This document shows, piece by piece, positions 9,303 to 41,067 of a stretch of 47,065 bases of DNA. The translations under genes were made by a program, and so were the position numbers. The notes beneath the pieces were generated by a model that worked only from the letters and a program-made list of their open reading frames with translations, was not told the origin of the DNA and ran no database searches. Every line of letters begins with the position of its first letter. Within the stretch, counting starts at the first letter, position 1. This DNA is from an uncultured Anaerobiospirillum sp. (GTDB lineage Bacteria; Pseudomonadota; Gammaproteobacteria; Enterobacterales; Succinivibrionaceae): NCBI GenBank assembly GCA_944390115.1, contig CALXOW010000022.1, forward strand, positions 1-47,065. Direction: 5' to 3'.

Positions 9303-11279
9303 ATGGACGTTGAAGCGCTAGCCTCCTTGGCCAGTCAAAAACGCTGTTGCGACGAGCTGTTGCAGCAAGTTTTTGCCAAGGAAGCTTTTATCCTGTTATC
9401 AGGTGAGCGGGGCTCGGGCCGTACGGCGGTGTGCGAACAAGTGGTCAATGCTGCTGATAACAAGCTCCCGGCGGTCTTTATTCCGTGCCAAAAGGACATG
9501 CAGTTAAAGCGCTTGCGCGAGCTCTTTTTGCAACAGCTGCTGCCTAATACCAAATTTGACCCGAACCTCAATTTGGCTGATGCCATTGCTCAGGCCTCAA
9601 GTGACGCCCCGGCTAAGAAGACCTTAGTGGTGGTCGACGATGCTGACAGCGTGCTCTCTTCCTTTTACAATGAGCTCTTGGCGCTGCATGAAGAGTTTCT
9701 AGGGAAGGGGCGCTTTGCCTTTATCCTAGTGTGCCAGCCGCTGTGGGCCGCCGAGAAGATTACGCGCAATATCTCCAAGGTCGACCTCGAGCAGGTACAG
9801 ATGCCTCAGCTCACCACTAACGAGGCGATGGTGTTATCGCGCCACATCTTTGCGGTGCACAACACCATGCGCATTTACAATTCCTTGGTTAATAAGTTGC
9901 CGCAAGCTTTAGCTCCGGCCCACGGTAACTTGTCCCAGATTATCACTATCACGGAGAAGCTTATGAAGGATCCTACTTCGGCGCAAGCAAATGCCGAACA
10001 GGCAGGCAAGGCCGGTAAGTTAGGTGCAGGCAAGAAGAAAAGCAGCTCGGTGGGCATCTTTGTCACGGTAGTGTGCATCATTATCGTCTTAGCTTGCTTG
10101 ATCCCGATTTTCATTGAGTCCAAGGACCAGCCAAGTGAGAGCACCACCGCCGAGGTGCCTAATGAGGAGGCTTTAGTCTTTGCCGACGACACCAAGAGCT
10201 TTGCTGAGACCACGCTCCAAGACGAGGGCGCGCTGCCGCAGAGCGTACCTGGCGGCATTGACGCCAAGACCCCCGAGGCCAGCACCGACCACTCGGTGAC
10301 CTTATCAGGCGAGGAGTTAGACAAGATTGAGGGCGGAGCTCATGGCTCTGACTATCCCAGGGGAGTGGACCGACCTGTAGCCCCGCAAGGAAGCCAGCCA
10401 AATAATCAGCAAGTCATGGTGCCACCTCAGCCGGTGCAACAGCCAGTGGCTGAGTTGCGTCGCGGCGACAACCCGAACCATGTTAGCGCCGGTCAAACCC
10501 AGCACACTGAGTTTGATATGCCTAAGCCACAGCCACAGCAGCCAGCAGCCAATAACAACGGCCCACAAATGGATCCGAACGCTGCGAACTTAGCGGCGCA
10601 GCTGGAGCAGGATCGTGCCAAGCTTGAGCAAGCGGCACGCGAGAAGCTAGCCGCTGATCGCGCTAAGGCCGAAGCCGAGCAAAAGGCCGCTGAGGCAAAG
10701 GCTAAGGCCGAGCAAGCTGCTAAGGAAGCTGCTGCTAAGGCAGCCGCCGACAAGGCCAAGGCCGAGCAACAAGCTCAGCAAGCCCAGCAGGCGCAGCGTC
10801 CGGCTCAGCGTCCTGCGGCCCAGCAGCACACGACCTTAAAGGCAGGTCAGGTCATTAACTTAGGCGACGAGCTGCGCGCTCAGCAAGCGGCCCAGCGTGC
10901 CGAGCAACAGGCACAGCGCCAGCCGCAGCGCCAGCCACAGCCTGTAGCCGACCGCCAGCCTCGTCCAGTCGCGGCCGGTAACGCAATTGAGGGCAGCTTA
11001 GATGAGCTGGCGCGAGCCAACGGTGCGCACTACACGGTGCAGGTAGTTTCGGCCTCGAACCGTGCCAATATCGCCGCTGCCGCTCAGGGCTTATCCGGGC
11101 GCTATTGGATTGTGCCAAGTACCCGCAACGGCCGTCCATGGTACGTGCTGGTCTTTGGGGACTTCCCAAGCCGTCAGGCAGCAATGAATGCGGCCGCGCA
11201 AGTGCCGACTTCGGTCTCGCAAGGCGCTAGCCCATTTGCCCGTCGCATCAGCGAAGTTCAAGCTGAGATGCGCCGCTAA
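9303..11279 (+). CDS. damX: DamX-like cell division protein (ATPase-like + SPOR)
   Basis: Inner-membrane protein that binds septal peptidoglycan. Order of parts: a cytoplasmic AAA/GspA-like domain (about 1-230) with a P-loop-like GERGSGRT (34-41) in which the invariant Lys is Arg, and a Walker-B-like TLVVVDD (107-113); a membrane helix (about 250-271); an acidic then Q/P-rich periplasmic linker; an Ala/Lys/Glu/Gln-rich coiled segment (about 425-560); and a C-terminal SPOR domain (about 575-655, HYTVQVVSASN). GGGAG precedes the ATG. At 658 residues it exceeds E. coli DamX (428). The Arg in the P-loop makes ATP hydrolysis doubtful. In E. coli dam follows; here it does not. Confidence 0.9.
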   Translation: MDVEALASLASQKRCCDELLQQVFAKEAFILLSGERGSGRTAVCEQVVNAADNKLPAVFIPCQKDMQLKRLRELFLQQLLPNTKFDPNLNLADAIAQASSDAPAKKTLVVVDDADSVLSSFYNELLALHEEFLGKGRFAFILVCQPLWAAEKITRNISKVDLEQVQMPQLTTNEAMVLSRHIFAVHNTMRIYNSLVNKLPQALAPAHGNLSQIITITEKLMKDPTSAQANAEQAGKAGKLGAGKKKSSSVGIFVTVVCIIIVLACLIPIFIESKDQPSESTTAEVPNEEALVFADDTKSFAETTLQDEGALPQSVPGGIDAKTPEASTDHSVTLSGEELDKIEGGAHGSDYPRGVDRPVAPQGSQPNNQQVMVPPQPVQQPVAELRRGDNPNHVSAGQTQHTEFDMPKPQPQQPAANNNGPQMDPNAANLAAQLEQDRAKLEQAAREKLAADRAKAEAEQKAAEAKAKAEQAAKEAAAKAAADKAKAEQQAQQAQQAQRPAQRPAAQQHTTLKAGQVINLGDELRAQQAAQRAEQQAQRQPQRQPQPVADRQPRPVAAGNAIEGSLDELARANGAHYTVQVVSASNRANIAAAAQGLSGRYWIVPSTRNGRPWYVLVFGDFPSRQAAMNAAAQVPTSVSQGASPFARRISEVQAEMRR

Positions 11280-11302
11280 TCAAAACCCAATTTAGAAAAA
11301 AG

Positions 11303-11351
11303 AAATGCCTCGCCTCCAGGGAAGCTTGGGGTCGGGGCATTTTTTTTTTTC
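11303..11351 (+). terminator. rho-independent terminator after damX
   Basis: Imperfect stem starting AAATGCCTCG and closing CGGGGCATTT, followed by an unbroken run of more than ten T. It ends the aroK-aroB-damX transcription unit and isolates it from the AT-rich island that follows. Confidence 0.8.
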
Positions 11352-11393: not shown

Positions 11394-11399
11394 TATAAT
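11394..11399 (+). promoter_or_regulatory. possible -10 box of the small-protein island
   Basis: A perfect TATAAT lies 41 bp before the first small gene of the island and just after the damX terminator. No good -35 box is seen at 16-18 bp upstream. The placement suggests the island has its own promoter. Confidence 0.4.
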
Positions 11400-11439
11400 A
11401 CCAGTATGTGCAACTTAGGCTGAGAGGAGGCGTGTGAGC

Positions 11440-11847
11440 ATGGAAGCTGCGATTTTACTGTTTCTGTTTGCCAGCTTTTTGCTTTTGCTGGGCTGCTTCG
11501 TCTTTGTTGGTTGGTATTTGGTGATGAGACGGCTCAGAAAAAAGCATGTTTTATTGCAAAGTAAGCTTGAATCTTTGTAGAAACAACTAAAACAGCGCAA
11601 CAATATTAAGTCAGATAATAGCAAAGGCAATAGCACAGCCAATGGCACAGAAACGGTCGAGTGGCGCGTGCGCGTGCCTAAAGAGCTGGACGATGATGTC
11701 CAAACCTTCATGAATACTTTTCGCTTTGGCGAGCAGATGGATATGGCTCAGTTATTAGATAATGCCTTATCTAGCTATATGATGGTTGAGGTATCACGCA
11801 AGATGCGTGAGGCATCGCGCGGCTTAGATATGTCTGAAAGCGAGTGA
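11440..11847 (+). pseudogene. TM-coil-RHH-like protein interrupted by in-frame TAG
   Basis: ATG with GAGAGGAGG nine bases upstream opens a 46-residue product with a strong membrane helix (residues 4-29, rich in F and L) and a basic coil, ending at TAG (11578-11580). The same frame then stays open for 88 codons to TGA (11845-11847). It encodes a Ser/Asn linker and a ribbon-helix-helix-like domain: VEWRVRVPKEL, then helices around DDDVQTF and MAQLLDNALSSYMM. That half aligns with the C-terminus of the intact paralogue at 12182-12586 (SLIISVPKEY ... LPKLINKALNCYALL). So it is either a nonsense-mutated copy, or a gene read through at UAG. No start codon suitable for the second half alone was found. 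Confidence 0.7.
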
Positions 11848-11893
11848 TTAGCAAAAGCTATGATGTTCGCTAGAGTTAAACTAAATAAATAAG

Positions 11894-12118
11894 ATGTTTG
11901 AATTTTTTGCTAAGAACTTTGTTGATATCTGTCTGCTGGCCTTTTTCTTGATTGCTATGGGGTTAATGATACGTTCTTTTTTAAGAACTAACAGAATCAT
12001 GAACGAAAATGCTAAATTAAGGAAAAAGATCCAAGACATTAGGAGTCAGATAAATGAAATTCATACTAAACAGCAAAACGAAAAGATCCAAACTTTTCGG
12101 ACTAATATGAAAATGTAA
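11894..12118 (+). CDS. small membrane-anchored coiled-coil protein
   Basis: A 74-residue product: a membrane helix at about 9-28 (VDICLLAFFLIAMGLMI) followed by a basic coiled coil (about 33-65, LRKKIQDIRSQINEI). It matches the anchor-plus-coil half of the neighbours at 11440 and 12182 but lacks the RHH-like domain, ending naturally at TAA. It may be a shortened paralogue able to pair with the full-length form through the coil. No recognised family. The start is an ATG after an AT-rich stretch, with only AATAAG as a poor ribosome binding site. Base composition is AT-rich compared with damX and rpe. Confidence 0.6.
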   Translation: MFEFFAKNFVDICLLAFFLIAMGLMIRSFLRTNRIMNENAKLRKKIQDIRSQINEIHTKQQNEKIQTFRTNMKM

Positions 12119-12143
12119 AACTTAAGCCACGAACCTTAAGTTT
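12118..12143 (+). terminator. hairpin after the anchor-coil gene
   Basis: Perfect 9-bp inverted repeat AAACTTAAG / CTTAAGTTT with an 8-nt loop overlapping the TAA stop of the preceding gene. It is followed by a G-rich then T-rich stretch (GTTTTGGTTTT). A weak terminator or transcript-end structure. Confidence 0.5.
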
Positions 12144-12181
12144 GCGGGGTGTTTTGGTTTTAGCATAATGCTAGGTGTAGC

Positions 12182-12586
12182 ATGCAGGTTGTTACGACTT
12201 TAATCATGGTTGCATATTTATCTGTTATAACTGGTCTGGTAGCTTTGGTTTATTTTCGTCGGATGCTAGCGATCGTTACTGCTGAAAATATCGAATTGAA
12301 GACTGAGTTAGCGTCTCTTGAGAAAGAGTTAGAGTATTTGCAAAACAAGCAAAAGCAGAGCAAAGCAGGGTGGATGGATGAGGGTGGGATTATGGGGGCG
12401 TCTGATGGCAGAAAATATGTTTCACTGATAATCTCTGTCCCTAAGGAGTATGACCAAAGTACGCGTGAGTATCTCGCGCATGCTGATGACCAAGCCGTAA
12501 ATGATTTGCCGAAATTAATTAATAAGGCGCTGAACTGCTATGCCTTGCTTTCATTAACTAGTACTATCAGGGAAGATTTTCGCTAG
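12182..12586 (+). CDS. membrane-anchored coiled-coil RHH-like protein
   Basis: A 134-residue product and the only complete member of the local family. Membrane helix about 3-25, heptad-like coiled coil about 33-60 (ELKTELASLEKELEYLQNK), flexible Gly-rich linker about 65-78, then a domain with the ribbon-helix-helix pattern: strand VSLIISVPKEY, helix STREYLAHA, helix LPKLINKALNCYALL. RHH folds usually bind DNA as dimers; a membrane-tethered one would be unusual. That function is inferred, not shown. The stop is TAG, and the frame continues open for 27 more codons (see 12593-12670). The start is an ATG at 12182 with a poor ribosome binding site. Confidence 0.65.
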   Translation: MQVVTTLIMVAYLSVITGLVALVYFRRMLAIVTAENIELKTELASLEKELEYLQNKQKQSKAGWMDEGGIMGASDGRKYVSLIISVPKEYDQSTREYLAHADDQAVNDLPKLINKALNCYALLSLTSTIREDFR

Positions 12587-12592
12587 GCCGGA

Positions 12593-12670
12593 ATGTCTCA
12601 AACAAAGGTTAATGAGATCATTGATGGCTGCCTTAAAAGAGTGCAGGAACCTGATTTTCGCTGGCGATAA
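12593..12670 (+). pseudogene. 25-codon remnant of an RHH-like C-terminus
   Basis: ATG to TAA in the same frame as the upstream gene, two codons after its TAG. The product MSQTKVNEIIDGCLKR... ending PDFRWR resembles the last helix and tail of the upstream protein (KLINKALNCY ... EDFR), and both copies share the bases GATTTTCGCT. This looks like a partial tandem duplication of the 3' end. It could be reached only by readthrough or by its own weak start. Confidence 0.4.
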
Positions 12671-12702
12671 ACATATTACTTGAGACCTCATAGGTGGTAG
12701 TT

Positions 12703-13014
12703 ATGATTAAATCAAACGACGATCAGGAATTGGTTCAGTGGGAGTTTACGATTCCTAAAGACCTGTATGACAAATTGCAAACTATTTGGCAAAGCAATCA
12801 TCCCAATGAAGATTTTGCTTGGTCGCGTTTGGTCATGGAAGCTGTCAGCCGTTATATTTTGATCAAAACCGCGCAGAAAAACAGAGTTCGCAGCTCCAGT
12901 TCCGGCGCCAAGAAGGGTGGGGCCCAAGCTGAACCAGCTATGACTACAGAGGATTTAAATGAAATTCTAGAAATTTCATTAAGACTCGCACAGTTGAAGG
13001 AAAAATTGTCTTGA
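12703..13014 (+). CDS. stand-alone RHH-like protein
   Basis: A 103-residue soluble protein: strand VQWEFTIPKDLYDKL (about 11-25), helices around 35-53 (WSRLVMEAVSRYILI), then a basic Ser/Gly/Lys linker and an amphipathic C-terminal helix (about 80-103). The first half aligns with the RHH-like domain of 11440-11847 and 12182-12586, but the membrane anchor and coil are missing. I start at the ATG at 12703, preceded by GGTGGT; a GTG at 12694 is in frame. It may be a freely diffusing partner of the anchored forms. Function unknown. Confidence 0.65.
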   Translation: MIKSNDDQELVQWEFTIPKDLYDKLQTIWQSNHPNEDFAWSRLVMEAVSRYILIKTAQKNRVRSSSSGAKKGGAQAEPAMTTEDLNEILEISLRLAQLKEKLS

Positions 13015-13208: not shown

Positions 13209-13886
13209 ATGGCCAAGCGTTTTTACTATGCCGGCTCGATCTTGTCGGCCGACCTCATGGACTTGGGGCGTGATATCGATGCGGCCTTGCAGGCCAAGAT
13301 GGACATCATCCACTTTGATGTCATGGACTACCACTTTGTCCAAAATCTCACCTTCGGTCCGGGCCTATTAAAGGCAGTGCGTTCCCGCTTCCCTGATGCC
13401 ATTATCGACGTGCACTTAATGGTCGACCCGATTAACGAGAAGATCATCACCGATTACGCTCAGGCTGGTGCCTCCATGATCTCCTTCCACCCTGAGGCCA
13501 CCCCGCATGTGGACCGCTATCTGTCCTTAATCCGCGAATTAGGCTGCAAGGCAGGCCTGGCATTAAACCCAGGTACCCCACCACAGCTTTTAAGATACCT
13601 GTGGGATCGCTTGGACTTCGTCCTGGTCATGACGGTCAACCCTGGCTTTGGCGGGCAAAAGATGATTCCAGCTACTTTAACTAAGGTCGCTGACGTTCAG
13701 GCCCTGGCTCGTGAGAGCAATGTCATCATCGATATCGAAGTCGATGGCGGTGTCGCTCCTAGCACCATCGCCGCCTGTGCTCAGGCCGGTGCCAATATCT
13801 TTGTGGTGGGCTCGGCGCTCTTTGGGCAAAAGGACTACGAAGTGGCGTTAGCCGAGCTCAACTACGCGCTCAAGGAAAAAGCTTAA
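13209..13886 (+). CDS. rpe: ribulose-phosphate 3-epimerase
   Basis: Interconverts ribulose 5-phosphate and xylulose 5-phosphate in the pentose phosphate pathway. It is a 225-residue TIM barrel, the same length as E. coli Rpe. Hallmarks are SILSADL (5' catalytic region), HFDVMDYHFV, DVHLMVDP, VNPGFGGQK and EVDGGV. The ATG at 13209 follows GAGGGGG. Its stop is one base before the ATG of gph, so translation is probably coupled. In E. coli it follows dam; here it follows the small-protein island. Confidence 0.95.
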   Translation: MAKRFYYAGSILSADLMDLGRDIDAALQAKMDIIHFDVMDYHFVQNLTFGPGLLKAVRSRFPDAIIDVHLMVDPINEKIITDYAQAGASMISFHPEATPHVDRYLSLIRELGCKAGLALNPGTPPQLLRYLWDRLDFVLVMTVNPGFGGQKMIPATLTKVADVQALARESNVIIDIEVDGGVAPSTIAACAQAGANIFVVGSALFGQKDYEVALAELNYALKEKA

Positions 13887-13887
13887 G

Positions 13888-15507
13888 ATGCCAGGCAATA
13901 AGAAGAATAAGCGCAAGTCTAAGAACCAGCGCGCCCGTCGTCCTAACACCTCGAGCAATCGTAACTTTGGGCGTAGCTCGGACTTTGGCTCGAGCTCGAC
14001 CATCGACGCTTTTGGCGGTCCTGAGAGCTTTAACTCATTTATTGGCTCAATCTTGGGCACCTACAATAAGGCCCGCTCAGGCCCAGACGTCGTAGCGAAT
14101 GGGGGCACGGCCACTGAGGAAGAGATCGACGACGCTCAAAGCAAAGCTTTTTCGATGCATATGCTGGTTGATACCTTTGACCGGCATTTCTCGGTGAGCG
14201 ATATTGCTGCGGACGATCCTGAGATCCGCGATGATTTGATCAAGGGCGCGGCCGTTGATCCTTCGTTGCGCTACATGTTGCCCGATGATCTCACGGGACA
14301 TGAGCTGGAGGTAATCGCTAAGTTCGACCCTGCTTTTGCCGCGCAAAAGCGTGAGGAGCTGGGCTTGTCGCCTGATGAGCCTGATGAGCCTGACTTCAGT
14401 TTTGGTGGGGGCACGGCCTCGAATTATGAGATCTTTGAGGCACGACGCAAAGCTCGAGCCTTGCATCAGTACTTTTCGCTGTTTGATAGTGACTCCAAGT
14501 CCATTATTGCGGCGCAGGCTTCGCCCGACATCCGTCATGAATTGATCTTGGGGGCCGCAGTTGATCCTTCGTTGCGTCACTATTTGCCTGATGATCTCAC
14601 GGCACAGGAGCTGGAGATCATCGCCAAGTTCGACCCTGCTTTTGCCGCTAAAAAGCGTCAGGAGCTGGGATTAGCGCCAGCTGGACTTTCTAGGCACGCA
14701 GGTCCGGTGATCGACGCTCAGGTCGAGGAGATGGAATCGGAGCTGGAATCGGCTCCAGAATCGGAATCAGCTGCGGCATCGGCCCAAACCATAGCCCTGT
14801 GTCCTAAGCTCATCATGTTTGACCTTGATGGCACCCTGGCCCACACCTTACCGCAGCTGACGCAAGCGGTGTGCGCGGTGGCTCAGGACTTAGGCTTTAA
14901 GGTACCAAGTGCCGAGGAAGTAAGCTGCTACGTCGGCAATGGCATGGATCTGCTCTTGGCACGCGCCATCTTGGGCCGTAAGGACATCACCTTAGCTGAG
15001 GTACCAGCAGAGCAGCTTGCTAAGGCCCGTGAGTCCTTTAGCCGCCATTACATGGCCGGGCTCAAAGAAAACTTTGAGGTCTATCCCGGCGTCTTAGAGG
15101 GGCTGGAGAAGTTCAAGCGTATGGGCATTAAGCTCGCGGTAGTCTCCAATAAGCCTAATAAGTTCGTACGGCCGTTGATGGAGTACATGGGCTTTTGGCC
15201 TTATCTGGATCTTGCCATGGGCGGTGAGGTCTTGCCTAAGAAAAAGCCTGACCCAATGCCGCTTAACTACGTCTTAAAGCGCTATGGGATTGAGCCGCAT
15301 GAGGCCATGATGGTGGGCGACTCCAATAACGACATCCGCGCGGGCAAGAATGCCGGAGTTGTGACTGTGGCCTTAACCTACGGCTACAACGGCGGCCAGG
15401 ATCTGCACGAAGAAAATCCTGACTACCTCTACGATGACTTCGTCTCCTTTGCTGCGCAAGTCGAGGCCGCTTACAAGAAGTCATTAATACCTGACTATGC
15501 CCGCTAA
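13888..15507 (+). CDS. gph: phosphoglycolate phosphatase with long repeat-containing N-terminal extension
   Basis: The C-terminal part (about 303-539) is a HAD phosphatase matching Gph, which removes phosphate from 2-phosphoglycolate: nucleophile DLDGT (312-316), VSNKPNKF (motif II), KKKPDP (motif III Lys) and GDSNNDI (motif IV). It sits correctly between rpe and trpS. Unlike typical Gph (about 250 residues), it carries some 300 extra N-terminal residues: a basic start (KNKRKSKNQRARR), a low-complexity Ser/Gly region, two tandem 89-residue repeats (72-160 and 174-262), and an acidic Glu/Ser linker. The frame is open throughout, and its ATG is one base from the rpe stop, so this is the natural start and not a misread. 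Confidence 0.88.
   Translation: MPGNKKNKRKSKNQRARRPNTSSNRNFGRSSDFGSSSTIDAFGGPESFNSFIGSILGTYNKARSGPDVVANGGTATEEEIDDAQSKAFSMHMLVDTFDRHFSVSDIAADDPEIRDDLIKGAAVDPSLRYMLPDDLTGHELEVIAKFDPAFAAQKREELGLSPDEPDEPDFSFGGGTASNYEIFEARRKARALHQYFSLFDSDSKSIIAAQASPDIRHELILGAAVDPSLRHYLPDDLTAQELEIIAKFDPAFAAKKRQELGLAPAGLSRHAGPVIDAQVEEMESELESAPESESAAASAQTIALCPKLIMFDLDGTLAHTLPQLTQAVCAVAQDLGFKVPSAEEVSCYVGNGMDLLLARAILGRKDITLAEVPAEQLAKARESFSRHYMAGLKENFEVYPGVLEGLEKFKRMGIKLAVVSNKPNKFVRPLMEYMGFWPYLDLAMGGEVLPKKKPDPMPLNYVLKRYGIEPHEAMMVGDSNNDIRAGKNAGVVTVALTYGYNGGQDLHEENPDYLYDDFVSFAAQVEAAYKKSLIPDYAR
14101..14673 (+). repeat. tandem 89-residue repeat inside gph
   Basis: Two in-frame copies, about 14101-14367 and 14407-14673. 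Shared features are GGTA at the start, AAVDPSLR, LPDDLT, ELE-IAKFDPAFAA and KR-ELGL at the end. The second half of each copy is nearly identical while the first half has diverged. No known domain is recognised; the spacing of L, A and P suggests short helices. Confidence 0.85.
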
Positions 15508-38229: not shown

Positions 38230-38703
38230 TTAGTCTTGCTGCTCGGTCTCAGTCTCTGGAGTCTCAACTTCAGGAGCTTGAACCTCAGGAGCTACCGTCT
38301 CTTCGTCAACAGGGGCGACTGGGGCACCACCGGCGGCAATACGAACCTTAGCCTGGCGCTCCAGGACGCTGACGTAAGCTTGCTTGATTTGCAAGATTTC
38401 AGCAACTTCCTTTTGGGTCTTGCCTTCGGCGCGCAGAGCCATAATCTTAGGCTCTAAAATTGCGGCACGGGAACCAGGGCGGTGTGGACGTGGTGGACGG
38501 CTGCCCTTCTTAGGGCCACGAGCCTTAGTCTCAGTACCCTTAGCAGCGGCCTTAGCGCCACGGCCTTTAAGCTGAATCGAGATAACACCCTCAGGGGTGG
38601 AAAAGGTTAAGACCGAGCCTTGCTTATGGAACTCTAAGCTTGTATCTGCCAGCAAGTCACGGATGGTCAGATTTAAGATTTCTTTTGGGGACAGCATTGC
38701 CAT
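38230..38703 (-). CDS. HTH protein with H-NS/MvaT-like layout (copy A)
   Basis: A 157-residue protein. The N-terminal module (about 1-45: SPKEILNLTIRDLLADTSLEFHKQG then VLTFSTPEGVISIQL) is followed by a basic Gly/Lys/Arg linker, a helix-turn-helix (about 85-120: ILEPKIMALRAEGKTQKEVAEI then LQIKQAYVSVLER) and an acidic Val/Pro/Glu/Thr tail. I start at the ATG at 38703, which has GGAGAG upstream, rather than at 38724. The function is probably DNA binding. It is a paralogue of 38823-39194 with the same N-module and HTH. The N-module matches nothing I can name. Confidence 0.65.
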   Translation of the reverse strand: MAMLSPKEILNLTIRDLLADTSLEFHKQGSVLTFSTPEGVISIQLKGRGAKAAAKGTETKARGPKKGSRPPRPHRPGSRAAILEPKIMALRAEGKTQKEVAEILQIKQAYVSVLERQAKVRIAAGGAPVAPVDEETVAPEVQAPEVETPETETEQQD

Positions 38704-38822
38704 ATTTACACTCTCCAAGAACACAAAAAAAAACAGTTAGGGGCAATTTTGCAAAATACCAAAATGAGCGACCGTATCAGGGGCAATCCTAATACGGTTC
38801 AGCGCATTAAGATAGCTGAGAC

Positions 38823-39194
38823 TTATTCCTGCTGGGCAGCCTCAGTAATCTCACGGTACCTATTTTCCAAGTTGCTGACGTAAGGGGTCGAGATGCCTAA
38901 GATTTGACCAATTTCGCGTTGGGTCTTGCCTTGATCACGCAGCTCGATAATCTTTGGGCCTAACGTCATAATGCGCGAGTTAGCGCGTGGGCCCTTTGGA
39001 CCGCGCTTGCAACCAGTGACGATATCAGTCTGGGCGGCCTTAGCCTTACCGCCCTTTGGTGGCTGAATGGTGATGACCCCATCTGGGGTGGAGAAGATTA
39101 AGACCGAGCCCTTCTTATGGAACTCTAAGTTTGGATCGTCCAGCAGCTGACGGACGGTCATTTTCATAATGTCTTTTGGCGATGGAATAGCCAT
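38823..39194 (-). CDS. HTH protein, paralogue of copy A (copy B)
   Basis: A 123-residue protein. The N-module SPKDIMKMTVRQLLDDPNLE ... FSTPDGVITIQP lines up with copy A, followed by a basic linker (KGGKAKAAQ, KRGPKGPRAN) and the HTH (about 78-115: LGPKIIELRDQGKTQREIGQI then LGISTPYVSNLE). It lacks the acidic tail of copy A. TAGGAG precedes the ATG. The two lie 119 bp apart on the same strand, downstream of the KAP NTPase gene, and are much less AT-rich than that gene. A repeated pair of small DNA-binding proteins suggests duplication within a regulatory module. Confidence 0.65.
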   Translation of the reverse strand: MAIPSPKDIMKMTVRQLLDDPNLEFHKKGSVLIFSTPDGVITIQPPKGGKAKAAQTDIVTGCKRGPKGPRANSRIMTLGPKIIELRDQGKTQREIGQILGISTPYVSNLENRYREITEAAQQE

Positions 39195-39213
39195 AGTGCA
39201 ACTCCTAATTAAA

Positions 39214-39219
39214 ATTATA
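39214..39219 (-). promoter_or_regulatory. possible -10 box for the HTH pair
   Basis: TATAAT on the minus strand, about 20 bp before the ATG of copy B, in an AT-rich stretch between the KAP gene and copy B. The -35 is not convincing. It would let the HTH genes be expressed apart from the NTPase. Confidence 0.35.
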
Positions 39220-39288
39220 GAACTAATAATTGTTTATAACTGCACTGCTATGATGTTAAATATTGGTTTATGAGGGATGATGAAATAT

Positions 39289-41067
39289 TTACGATATTGT
39301 ATTCTTGGTGTTGTTGCGCTGCTCATCAAATATAGGTTTATTAAAACAATATATTGCTAGTTTCATGGCCTCAATAAATTTCTTTTCAAAAAAGTCTGGG
39401 TTGCCAGTTTTATTTTTATCTTGAATGGTTTTTAATATTTCACGCATAAGCCTTGCTTGGTGACCAAGACCTTTATAATTCATTTTTTCTAAAGTATTTA
39501 GGGTTGCAGACCAATTTTCCAATATTTGCTCTTCTTGATATGACTTCTTGGCACGGTTTGGTGAGGAGCAAGCATTCCAAGGTGTAAAAATTCTATCTTT
39601 TACGAGCTTTTGATAAATATATGGATATGAGATTTGAGTACATACTATTACAAATAAAAGTGCTTTAAATGTAGTATCAGCAGGCATAACATTAGAAGGA
39701 TCTGTTTTATAAAGATTTTTATCTTGAGCTTTTTTGATATGTAAAAACAATGATAGTGTGTTGACTAATCTCTTGATAAAACGAGGATTGCAGTTTACTA
39801 AACGTGCAGCAAATAAAATTAAATCATATTTGAGATCAAAGTCGTCATGTTGCTCCTCAGTAGTAAAATATTTTATATCTTCTAGTGATTTAATCATTAA
39901 GTTAGGTATAGCAGTTGCTTGAGTTGGAAGAGTTATAGTTTGTTGAACAAATTTGTCAAAGTATGCACGAAATGTAGGTTCATTTTCAGGTGTAAGCTCT
40001 CCTAATTTTGCTCGAAGTCCTCTAAGAGCAATATTGTTGTCAAGTGCGACAATAAAGATACTGCTGCTGAAATCAAAGATATTTTTTGTAACCTCAAGAA
40101 TTTCAACTGCAAGTGTTGGATCGATACGATCGAGATTGTCAATAAAAAATACGATTCCTCGCTTTTCTTGAATATTATTATTGATAATCTTAGCAGAATT
40201 ATGATGGTCTTGTATAGTTTCTTTTGATGCTTGATTGTTATAGGTATTACTGATTTTTGGAGATTTAAACCAATTACATAGACCGCATCTGTTGTTAGTT
40301 TGAATGGCGGCTTGTTGTGTATTATCTTGTTGTAATAAAATGTAGTTTTCATCATTGTTTGGGTCTAGAATTTCCTTGATTAGACCGGTAATATCATCAT
40401 GTAGTTGTTTGATAACTGAAAGATTGCCATCTTGATTATTGGCTTGTTTGTCGTTGGCAGACCAAGAATTGGTAATAACATCTGCAACTTCATCAATCAT
40501 CTCAGCACTAACGATGCCTGCTGTAGCCACTTTAGCTCCAGACGTTATAAGTTTCTTGGCTGCAAACTTTCCAAGATTTTTCATAATTAATGCAGCTTTT
40601 TCGATATATTCTTTTCCTTGTTGTTCTGTGGCAACCACAGGCTTTAAATGACCTATTTGATATACCATAGACTGCAACATATTGATAACAGCAGGAATTG
40701 GTGATTGAAGTAATGCGAAATCACAAGCATCAATCCAAATAGGGTAATATAAAGACTCTTTGTTTTTACAAAGTTTAATTTTAAGAAGGTTTAAAAAAGA
40801 TGTTTTACCAATACCCCATTCACCTTGTACTGCCATGGTGAAAGGCATTTTTGCGGTGTTTAGGAATTCTGTCATGCCGTCCAGAATTTCGCCTAGGCCG
40901 ATTAGATCTTCTTTTTCTGATTCGATTGAACGATCTAAGACATTTGAAGGAGTAGATCCTCCCATCTCTTGACTTGAGCTAGAGGTTGCTTCTTTTTCCT
41001 GTAAGGCGGAAGTATTATTGGCTTCATTTTGAGTATCAATCTGAGCGTTGGTTTCATTAGGAGTCAT
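39289..41067 (-). CDS. KAP-family P-loop NTPase
   Basis: A 592-residue KAP-type STAND/AAA-like ATPase. The N-terminus is polar and Ser/Asn/Gln-rich (1-55). The P-loop is GEWGIGKTS (82-90), a large variable insert (about 150-300, with a short hydrophobic stretch near 172-190) follows, and the Walker B is IVFFIDNLDR (Asp310, Asp313). Then come the KAP-typical GLRAKLGEL ... FDKFVQQTITLP region and ARLVNCNPRFIKRLVN. KAP proteins are often membrane-linked and appear in phage-defence and mobile contexts. It is strikingly AT-rich and Asn/Lys/Ile-rich compared with neighbours, a sign of transfer. AAGGA precedes the ATG. No partner effector is seen. Confidence 0.82.
   Translation of the reverse strand: MTPNETNAQIDTQNEANNTSALQEKEATSSSSQEMGGSTPSNVLDRSIESEKEDLIGLGEILDGMTEFLNTAKMPFTMAVQGEWGIGKTSFLNLLKIKLCKNKESLYYPIWIDACDFALLQSPIPAVINMLQSMVYQIGHLKPVVATEQQGKEYIEKAALIMKNLGKFAAKKLITSGAKVATAGIVSAEMIDEVADVITNSWSANDKQANNQDGNLSVIKQLHDDITGLIKEILDPNNDENYILLQQDNTQQAAIQTNNRCGLCNWFKSPKISNTYNNQASKETIQDHHNSAKIINNNIQEKRGIVFFIDNLDRIDPTLAVEILEVTKNIFDFSSSIFIVALDNNIALRGLRAKLGELTPENEPTFRAYFDKFVQQTITLPTQATAIPNLMIKSLEDIKYFTTEEQHDDFDLKYDLILFAARLVNCNPRFIKRLVNTLSLFLHIKKAQDKNLYKTDPSNVMPADTTFKALLFVIVCTQISYPYIYQKLVKDRIFTPWNACSSPNRAKKSYQEEQILENWSATLNTLEKMNYKGLGHQARLMREILKTIQDKNKTGNPDFFEKKFIEAMKLAIYCFNKPIFDEQRNNTKNTIS

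Follow-up and report, generated by a model that had tools for sequence, protein, structure and literature searches.

The antitoxins of PIN toxins are, to our knowledge, small soluble proteins. One toxin-antitoxin pair is known by name as PIN_3-RHH_6 and is found, for instance, in Tn3 transposons, among them an element whose toxin is truncated but whose antitoxin is intact (PMC7157771). A membrane-bound regulator beside toxin-antitoxin genes has likewise been described, namely HigX, a membrane-associated LytTR regulator encoded beside higBA in Caulobacter (PMC13384398). The island of small genes discussed here comes from an uncultured Anaerobiospirillum species and lies in a window of 47,065 nucleotides (the whole stretch of DNA that was analysed), which forms contig C22 of a draft genome (G000; 3.64 Mb, 92.85% complete). 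We consider it likely that the island consists of three antitoxin-like genes and one truncated copy, that these are relatives of the RHH_6 antitoxins of the VapBC-like PIN_3-RHH_6 family, with no toxin partner found in the genome, and that they were gained in a lineage of two species and are now decaying. The products of O1 and O4, and of the truncated O3, would carry an N-terminal membrane helix and a coiled coil, with the ribbon-helix-helix (RHH) domain on the cytoplasmic side according to the charge pattern.

Along the window, the genes follow the order aroK-aroB-damX-island-rpe-gph-trpS. Open reading frames and Pfam matches confirm what the preliminary description had said of this order, including that no dam gene lies between damX and rpe. 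The interval had also been described as a 1.6-kb AT-rich stretch with its own TATAAT and a terminator upstream, and these elements are indeed present (Table 1). The G+C content of positions 11394-13014 is 40.7%, as compared to 53.2% for the whole window, and none of 200 shuffled sequences folded as well as the hairpin downstream of damX. A simple promoter and terminator scan did not list this hairpin, nor did it report a consensus pair of -35 and -10 boxes for the TATAAT. The G+C minimum of the window is not at the island, but near 39.2 kb, where it drops to about 32%; this stretch (38230-41067) holds, on the minus strand, a gene for a KAP-family P-loop NTPase and two small HTH-type open reading frames downstream of it. 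A separate observation concerns gph (13888-15507), whose product is extended N-terminally of the HAD domain by some 300 residues; two stretches within this extension look similar by eye.

Table 1. Features of the damX-rpe region, in coordinates of the window.
Feature	Position	Strand	Basis or remark
damX (AAA domain, SPOR domain)	9303..11279	+	Pfam AAA_22 5.7e-13, SPOR 2.4e-11
Terminator hairpin 3′ of damX	11295..11350	+	fold -33.4 kcal/mol, z -4.76
TATAAT, possible -10 box without consensus -35	11394..11399	+	sequence
AGAGGAGG, Shine-Dalgarno-like, 9 bases 5′ of ATG 11440	11423..11430	+	sequence
O1, first part: membrane helix and start of coiled coil	11434..11580	+	ends with TAG 11578-11580; GTG at 11434, likely start ATG 11440
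O1, second part: frame past the TAG, RHH domain	11581..11847	+	dN/dS 0.20 versus G003
O3: membrane helix and coiled coil, no RHH domain	11894..12118	+	ORF, hydropathy, heptads
Inverted repeat downstream of O3, perfect 9-base arms, 8-base loop	12118..12143	.	sequence
O4: membrane helix, coiled coil and RHH domain	12182..12586	+	ends with TAG 12584-12586; dN/dS 0.25, residues 34-134
Open frame past the TAG of O4, 27 codons and TAA	12587..12670	+	resembles C-terminal part of RHH_6 antitoxins; dN/dS 0.08
O5: soluble RHH protein	12694..13014	+	GTG 12694 or ATG 12703; dN/dS 0.74
rpe	13209..13886	+	Pfam 1.4e-70; ORF listed from TTG 13098

The island comprises four frames on the plus strand, O1, O3, O4 and O5. 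They had been said to share a membrane helix, a coiled coil and an RHH-like domain, which applies to O4, the only one that has all three in a single open frame, and to O1 only if its frame (ATG 11440 to 11847) is followed across the in-frame TAG. It does not apply to O3, which lacks the RHH domain, nor to O5, which has no membrane helix: the best hydropathy over 19 residues is 2.98, 2.37 and 2.36 for O1, O3 and O4, but 0.65 for O5. The helix and the coiled coil as such are supported by computed hydropathy and heptads, in that O1, O3 and O4 each have one hydrophobic N-terminal helix, three to six lysines or arginines in the next 15 residues, and then a heptad-rich stretch. Since membrane proteins tend to keep such basic residues on the inner side (the positive-inside rule), the C-terminal parts, and with them the RHH domains of O1 and O4, would face the cytoplasm. 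O1 and O4 are paralogous over residues 7-132 of O4 (E=0.0015 in a search of their own genome, 22% identity). For O3, weak matches to FtsL_2 (0.008) and phrog_1955 (3.8e-4) were set aside as coiled-coil likeness.

The kinship of the C-terminal domain was evaluated with a profile of five rows, which came from the window and from a sister species (G003, a near relative of the same genus) and excluded outside antitoxins. Among PDB sequences, the best match of this profile was the solved protein 2k6l (E=5.2e-5, 44 profile positions aligned), and the same entry was found at E=1.4e-8 when relatives were added to the profile. The depositors named it 'Putative uncharacterized protein'; we take it to be XACb0070 of Xanthomonas, with an RHH fold. 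The island-only profile also aligned over 76 columns with three antitoxins encoded next to PIN toxins, two of them from plasmids and one from a third species, G031 (hhalign 97.9%, E=3.5e-13), and O5 matched the G031 antitoxin in a pairwise BLASTP comparison (E=7e-10). None of the island proteins reached the curated cut-off of 27 bits for RHH_6 (PF16762), with 14.6 bits for O4 read through its stop and no match for O1 and O5, and a search of the draft genome with this model gave no match at E<=0.01. O5 as a single query retrieved no PDB entry at E-values up to 5. Because the Pfam cut-off is missed and O5 lacks a PDB match, we term the domain a relative of RHH_6 rather than a certified member. 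With this proviso, the RHH-like domain that had been proposed is supported, and at the level of sequence its reading as a strand-helix-helix RHH core holds.

Relatives of the island are scarce. Among 147 genomes, the RHH profile found matches in three: the genome of the window (three island genes), the sister species (six places) and G031 (one). The island itself was found in the first two species only, and the third has a single soluble relative. With O4 as a single query, 4 of 98 genomes gave matches, of which the one in G093 was set aside as covering only the helix and coiled coil, within a 514-residue frame. Several of the relatives adjoin toxin genes. On contig C63 of G031, an RHH_6 antitoxin gene (3.9e-17) lies just before a PIN_3 gene (3.6e-16). 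On contig C8 of the sister species, an RHH gene whose product is 55% identical to the RHH domain of O1 over 58 residues lies directly 5′ of a PIN_3 gene. A search for PIN_3 across 59 genomes located three such genes in the sister species (C8, C34 and C46), the last of them without a SPOR domain and, by eye, after an AbrB-like frame. The genome of the window gave no PIN_3 match, neither in the island nor elsewhere in the draft; with 92.85% completeness, a PIN_3 gene could sit in an assembly gap. In terms of DNA, the best likeness between the island and the toxin-antitoxin loci of the sister species and G031 extends over 38 bases (C8 of the sister species, at the RHH part of O1, E=0.011). Palindromes upstream of the RHH genes that might serve as a shared operator are weak or not common to the genes; one palindrome of 16 bases spans the TATAAT.

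The PIN proteins of the sister species lead back to damX. The protein encoded on C8 has 272 residues, and its C-terminal part is SPOR-like (L091 1785-2603); on C34, a second such PIN-SPOR gene, interrupted by an in-frame TGA (L079 6679-7350), is flanked by an RHH gene on either side. The SPOR parts align with the DamX protein of the window (pairwise E=6e-13 for C8 and 1e-16 for C34), and for C8 the likeness extends into the C-terminal tail of DamX. When the SPOR part was searched in the genomes of the window and the sister species, it matched only DamX and PIN-SPOR genes. With the Pfam SPOR model, the C34 protein scored no better than E=0.11. The C8 protein has a best hydropathy of 1.46 and no membrane helix, which speaks against a role of its SPOR domain at peptidoglycan. 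Among plasmids, 550 records matched the fusion protein, none across more than 80% of the query, and among the matches listed (20 of 550), the alignments reached residue 204 of 272 at most; two plasmid matches that were inspected are PIN genes of 411 bases and hence too short to hold the SPOR domain. There was no match in phages, and no relative was confirmed in viral contigs. The fusions represent a second tie to damX besides the position of the island, and some connection to DamX may exist: chance recombination involving the 3′ end of damX may have produced the double link, or it may be functional. One could go further and propose that in this Anaerobiospirillum lineage the PIN_3-RHH_6 family is tied to DamX from both sides, the toxins having captured its SPOR domain and tail and the membrane-anchored antitoxins being encoded right after damX, such that the meeting of toxin and antitoxin and the release of the toxin would depend on the envelope or division site. 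We regard this as rather improbable.

Computed nonsense codons and selection on the frames suggest that the island is decaying. O1 and O4 are each interrupted by a TAG, and at both places the sister species reads CAG. Its own copy of O1 carries another TAG, nine codons before the next stop of the frame, and two of its contigs stop a short way beyond a break, C23 in O3 and C14 in O4. This break lies between O3 and O4, beside repeated sequence; an 83-base sequence at the break has six further copies in the sister species and two in the genome of the window (at least 95%; C23 side searched; L069-L077). An insertion is the likely cause and an assembly fault a possible one. Compared with the sister species, and with small counts throughout, dN/dS of O3 is 0.24 (28 codons), and O5 has the highest value among the island genes (Table 1); for rpe, gph, trpS, aroB and damX, the range is 0.03-0.10. 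Upstream of its TAG, O1 shows no difference between the two species (48 codons). Given the few amino-acid changes in the frames past the TAGs, the decay looks recent. The TAGs could possibly stem from assembly errors.

The preliminary description had placed the island where dam should be, and had taken dam to be missing and replaced. This is contradicted by a Dam-family gene on another contig of the same genome (C10:2391-3131), which matches TIGR00571 with 297 bits (E=1.5e-88, cut-off 114.85) and PF02086 with E=1.1e-71, and whose neighbours look similar, by eye, in G009, another species of the genus. In the encoded protein of 417 residues (L001 1057-2310), TIGR00571 covers residues 19-287, and a tail of about 130 residues appears rich in alanine, glutamine and proline by eye. 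Nor does the damX-rpe interval itself argue for a replacement. It was compared in 19 relatives, 16 of which have both genes on one piece (the sister species was left out with the genes on two contigs, G010 because of a contig end and G013 with damX undetected), and dam lies between them in none of these 16. The interval measures about 0.5 kb or less in 14 of them and 1.6 kb in G009, and G016 was excluded from measurement. Counted by eye on the same contig within about 6 kb, such that contig ends could hide some cases, dam lies beside rpe in 2 of 35 genomes of the family versus 14 of 24 order-level outgroups. Most likely, therefore, dam disappeared from here early and the island was gained much later. 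That dam does not lie next to damX is a long-standing feature of the family and not a sign that the organism has lost Dam. A Dam-family gene is found elsewhere, and one relative, the sister species, does carry the island. A D12 methylase match was found in 54 of 59 genomes; the five without one include the sister species and two more members of the genus, so that dam either is not shared by the whole genus or is lacking in those draft assemblies.

These data bear on how the island is best explained. That its RHH proteins stand in for Dam here might be suggested by the empty interval, by the lack of a SeqA match in the genome of the window and by the sister species without a D12 methylase, but in view of the Dam gene on C10 and of the family-wide arrangement, we find it hardly credible. 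Nearly as improbable is that the TAGs of O1 and O4 are read through to give full-length proteins. The frames past both stops are open and little changed, and both codons are CAG in the sister species, yet aroB and further ordinary genes of the window have TAG as their stop codon. An ARAGORN-based survey of the genome typed 58 of 59 tRNA matches, in 50 loci, and found no CTA anticodon among them; the remaining match, C53:1-68, is cut by a contig end. Amber recoding was accordingly rejected, with a suppressor tRNA outside the assembly as a possibility. Equally rejected were a phage origin (no match of O4 in phages, and no relative confirmed when viral contigs were scanned with O3, O5 and the pre-TAG part of O1) and a plasmid origin (no match of O5 in plasmids). 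A PADLOC scan gave nothing convincing.

A stronger competitor is that the genes are plain cargo without present function, and that small mobile genes tend to insert between damX and rpe and then degenerate. In G009, the same interval (L040 4747-5875) holds two open reading frames that are unrelated to the island and have transposase-type PHROG matches (6.5e-4 and 3.7e-9), which makes it look like a cargo spot, and the TAGs, the break in the sister species and the dN/dS of 0.74 for O5 point the same way. Where it could be measured in O1, O3 and O4, also past the TAGs, dN/dS is nonetheless 0.08-0.25, again with small counts, and we hold the cargo explanation to be possible but not the favoured one. 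The preliminary description had suggested a possible link between DNA position and the envelope. In this case, RHH regulators tethered to the membrane would couple DNA, or the control of genes, to the envelope or to DamX, with O1 and O4 holding an operator at the membrane. The architecture of O4, and of O1 across its TAG, fits this proposal, as does the position directly 3′ of damX, and HigX is a precedent for membrane-bound regulators beside toxin-antitoxin genes (PMC13384398). Against it stand the occurrence in only two species among 147 genomes, plus the soluble relative in a third, the nonsense codons, the kinship to antitoxins and the absence of a known target. We consider the proposed link unlikely. 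As to the interpretation as decaying orphan antitoxin genes, a point against it is that the moderately low dN/dS is also compatible with genes still in use.

If the island genes are solitary antitoxins, their RHH domains would form dimers, assisted by the coiled coil. Such dimers would bind an operator, probably in their own promoter, and/or neutralise PIN_3 toxins in trans, with the anchored copies acting at the membrane. We put this mode of action forward tentatively, as a possibility less well founded than the orphan-antitoxin origin itself. An antitoxin copy anchored in the membrane would give cells a novel means of localising antidote or repressor activity, and the fusion of a PIN toxin with a DamX-type SPOR domain would represent a novel toxin architecture; neither was among the literature matches listed, which argues weakly for novelty.

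How, then, does the island compare with the described systems? With 2k6l it shares a core that can be aligned over 44 profile positions, but that protein has 51 residues and, unlike O1, O3 and O4, no membrane helix. HigX (PMC13384398) resembles O4 in that a DNA-binding domain is tethered by N-terminal helices and encoded beside toxin-antitoxin genes; it differs from the island proteins in having a LytTR instead of an RHH domain, in its four helices, in being widespread and in showing no kinship to antitoxins. A further likeness is to the VapBC-like PIN_3-RHH_6 modules, whose antitoxin is homologous to the C-terminal domain of the island proteins and whose PIN_3 genes adjoin the relatives of the island on C8 and C34 of the sister species and on C63 of G031. 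The island departs from these modules in that no toxin was found in it or in its genome, in the membrane helix and coiled coil of O1, O3 and O4, in its tandem copies and in its scores below the Pfam cut-off.
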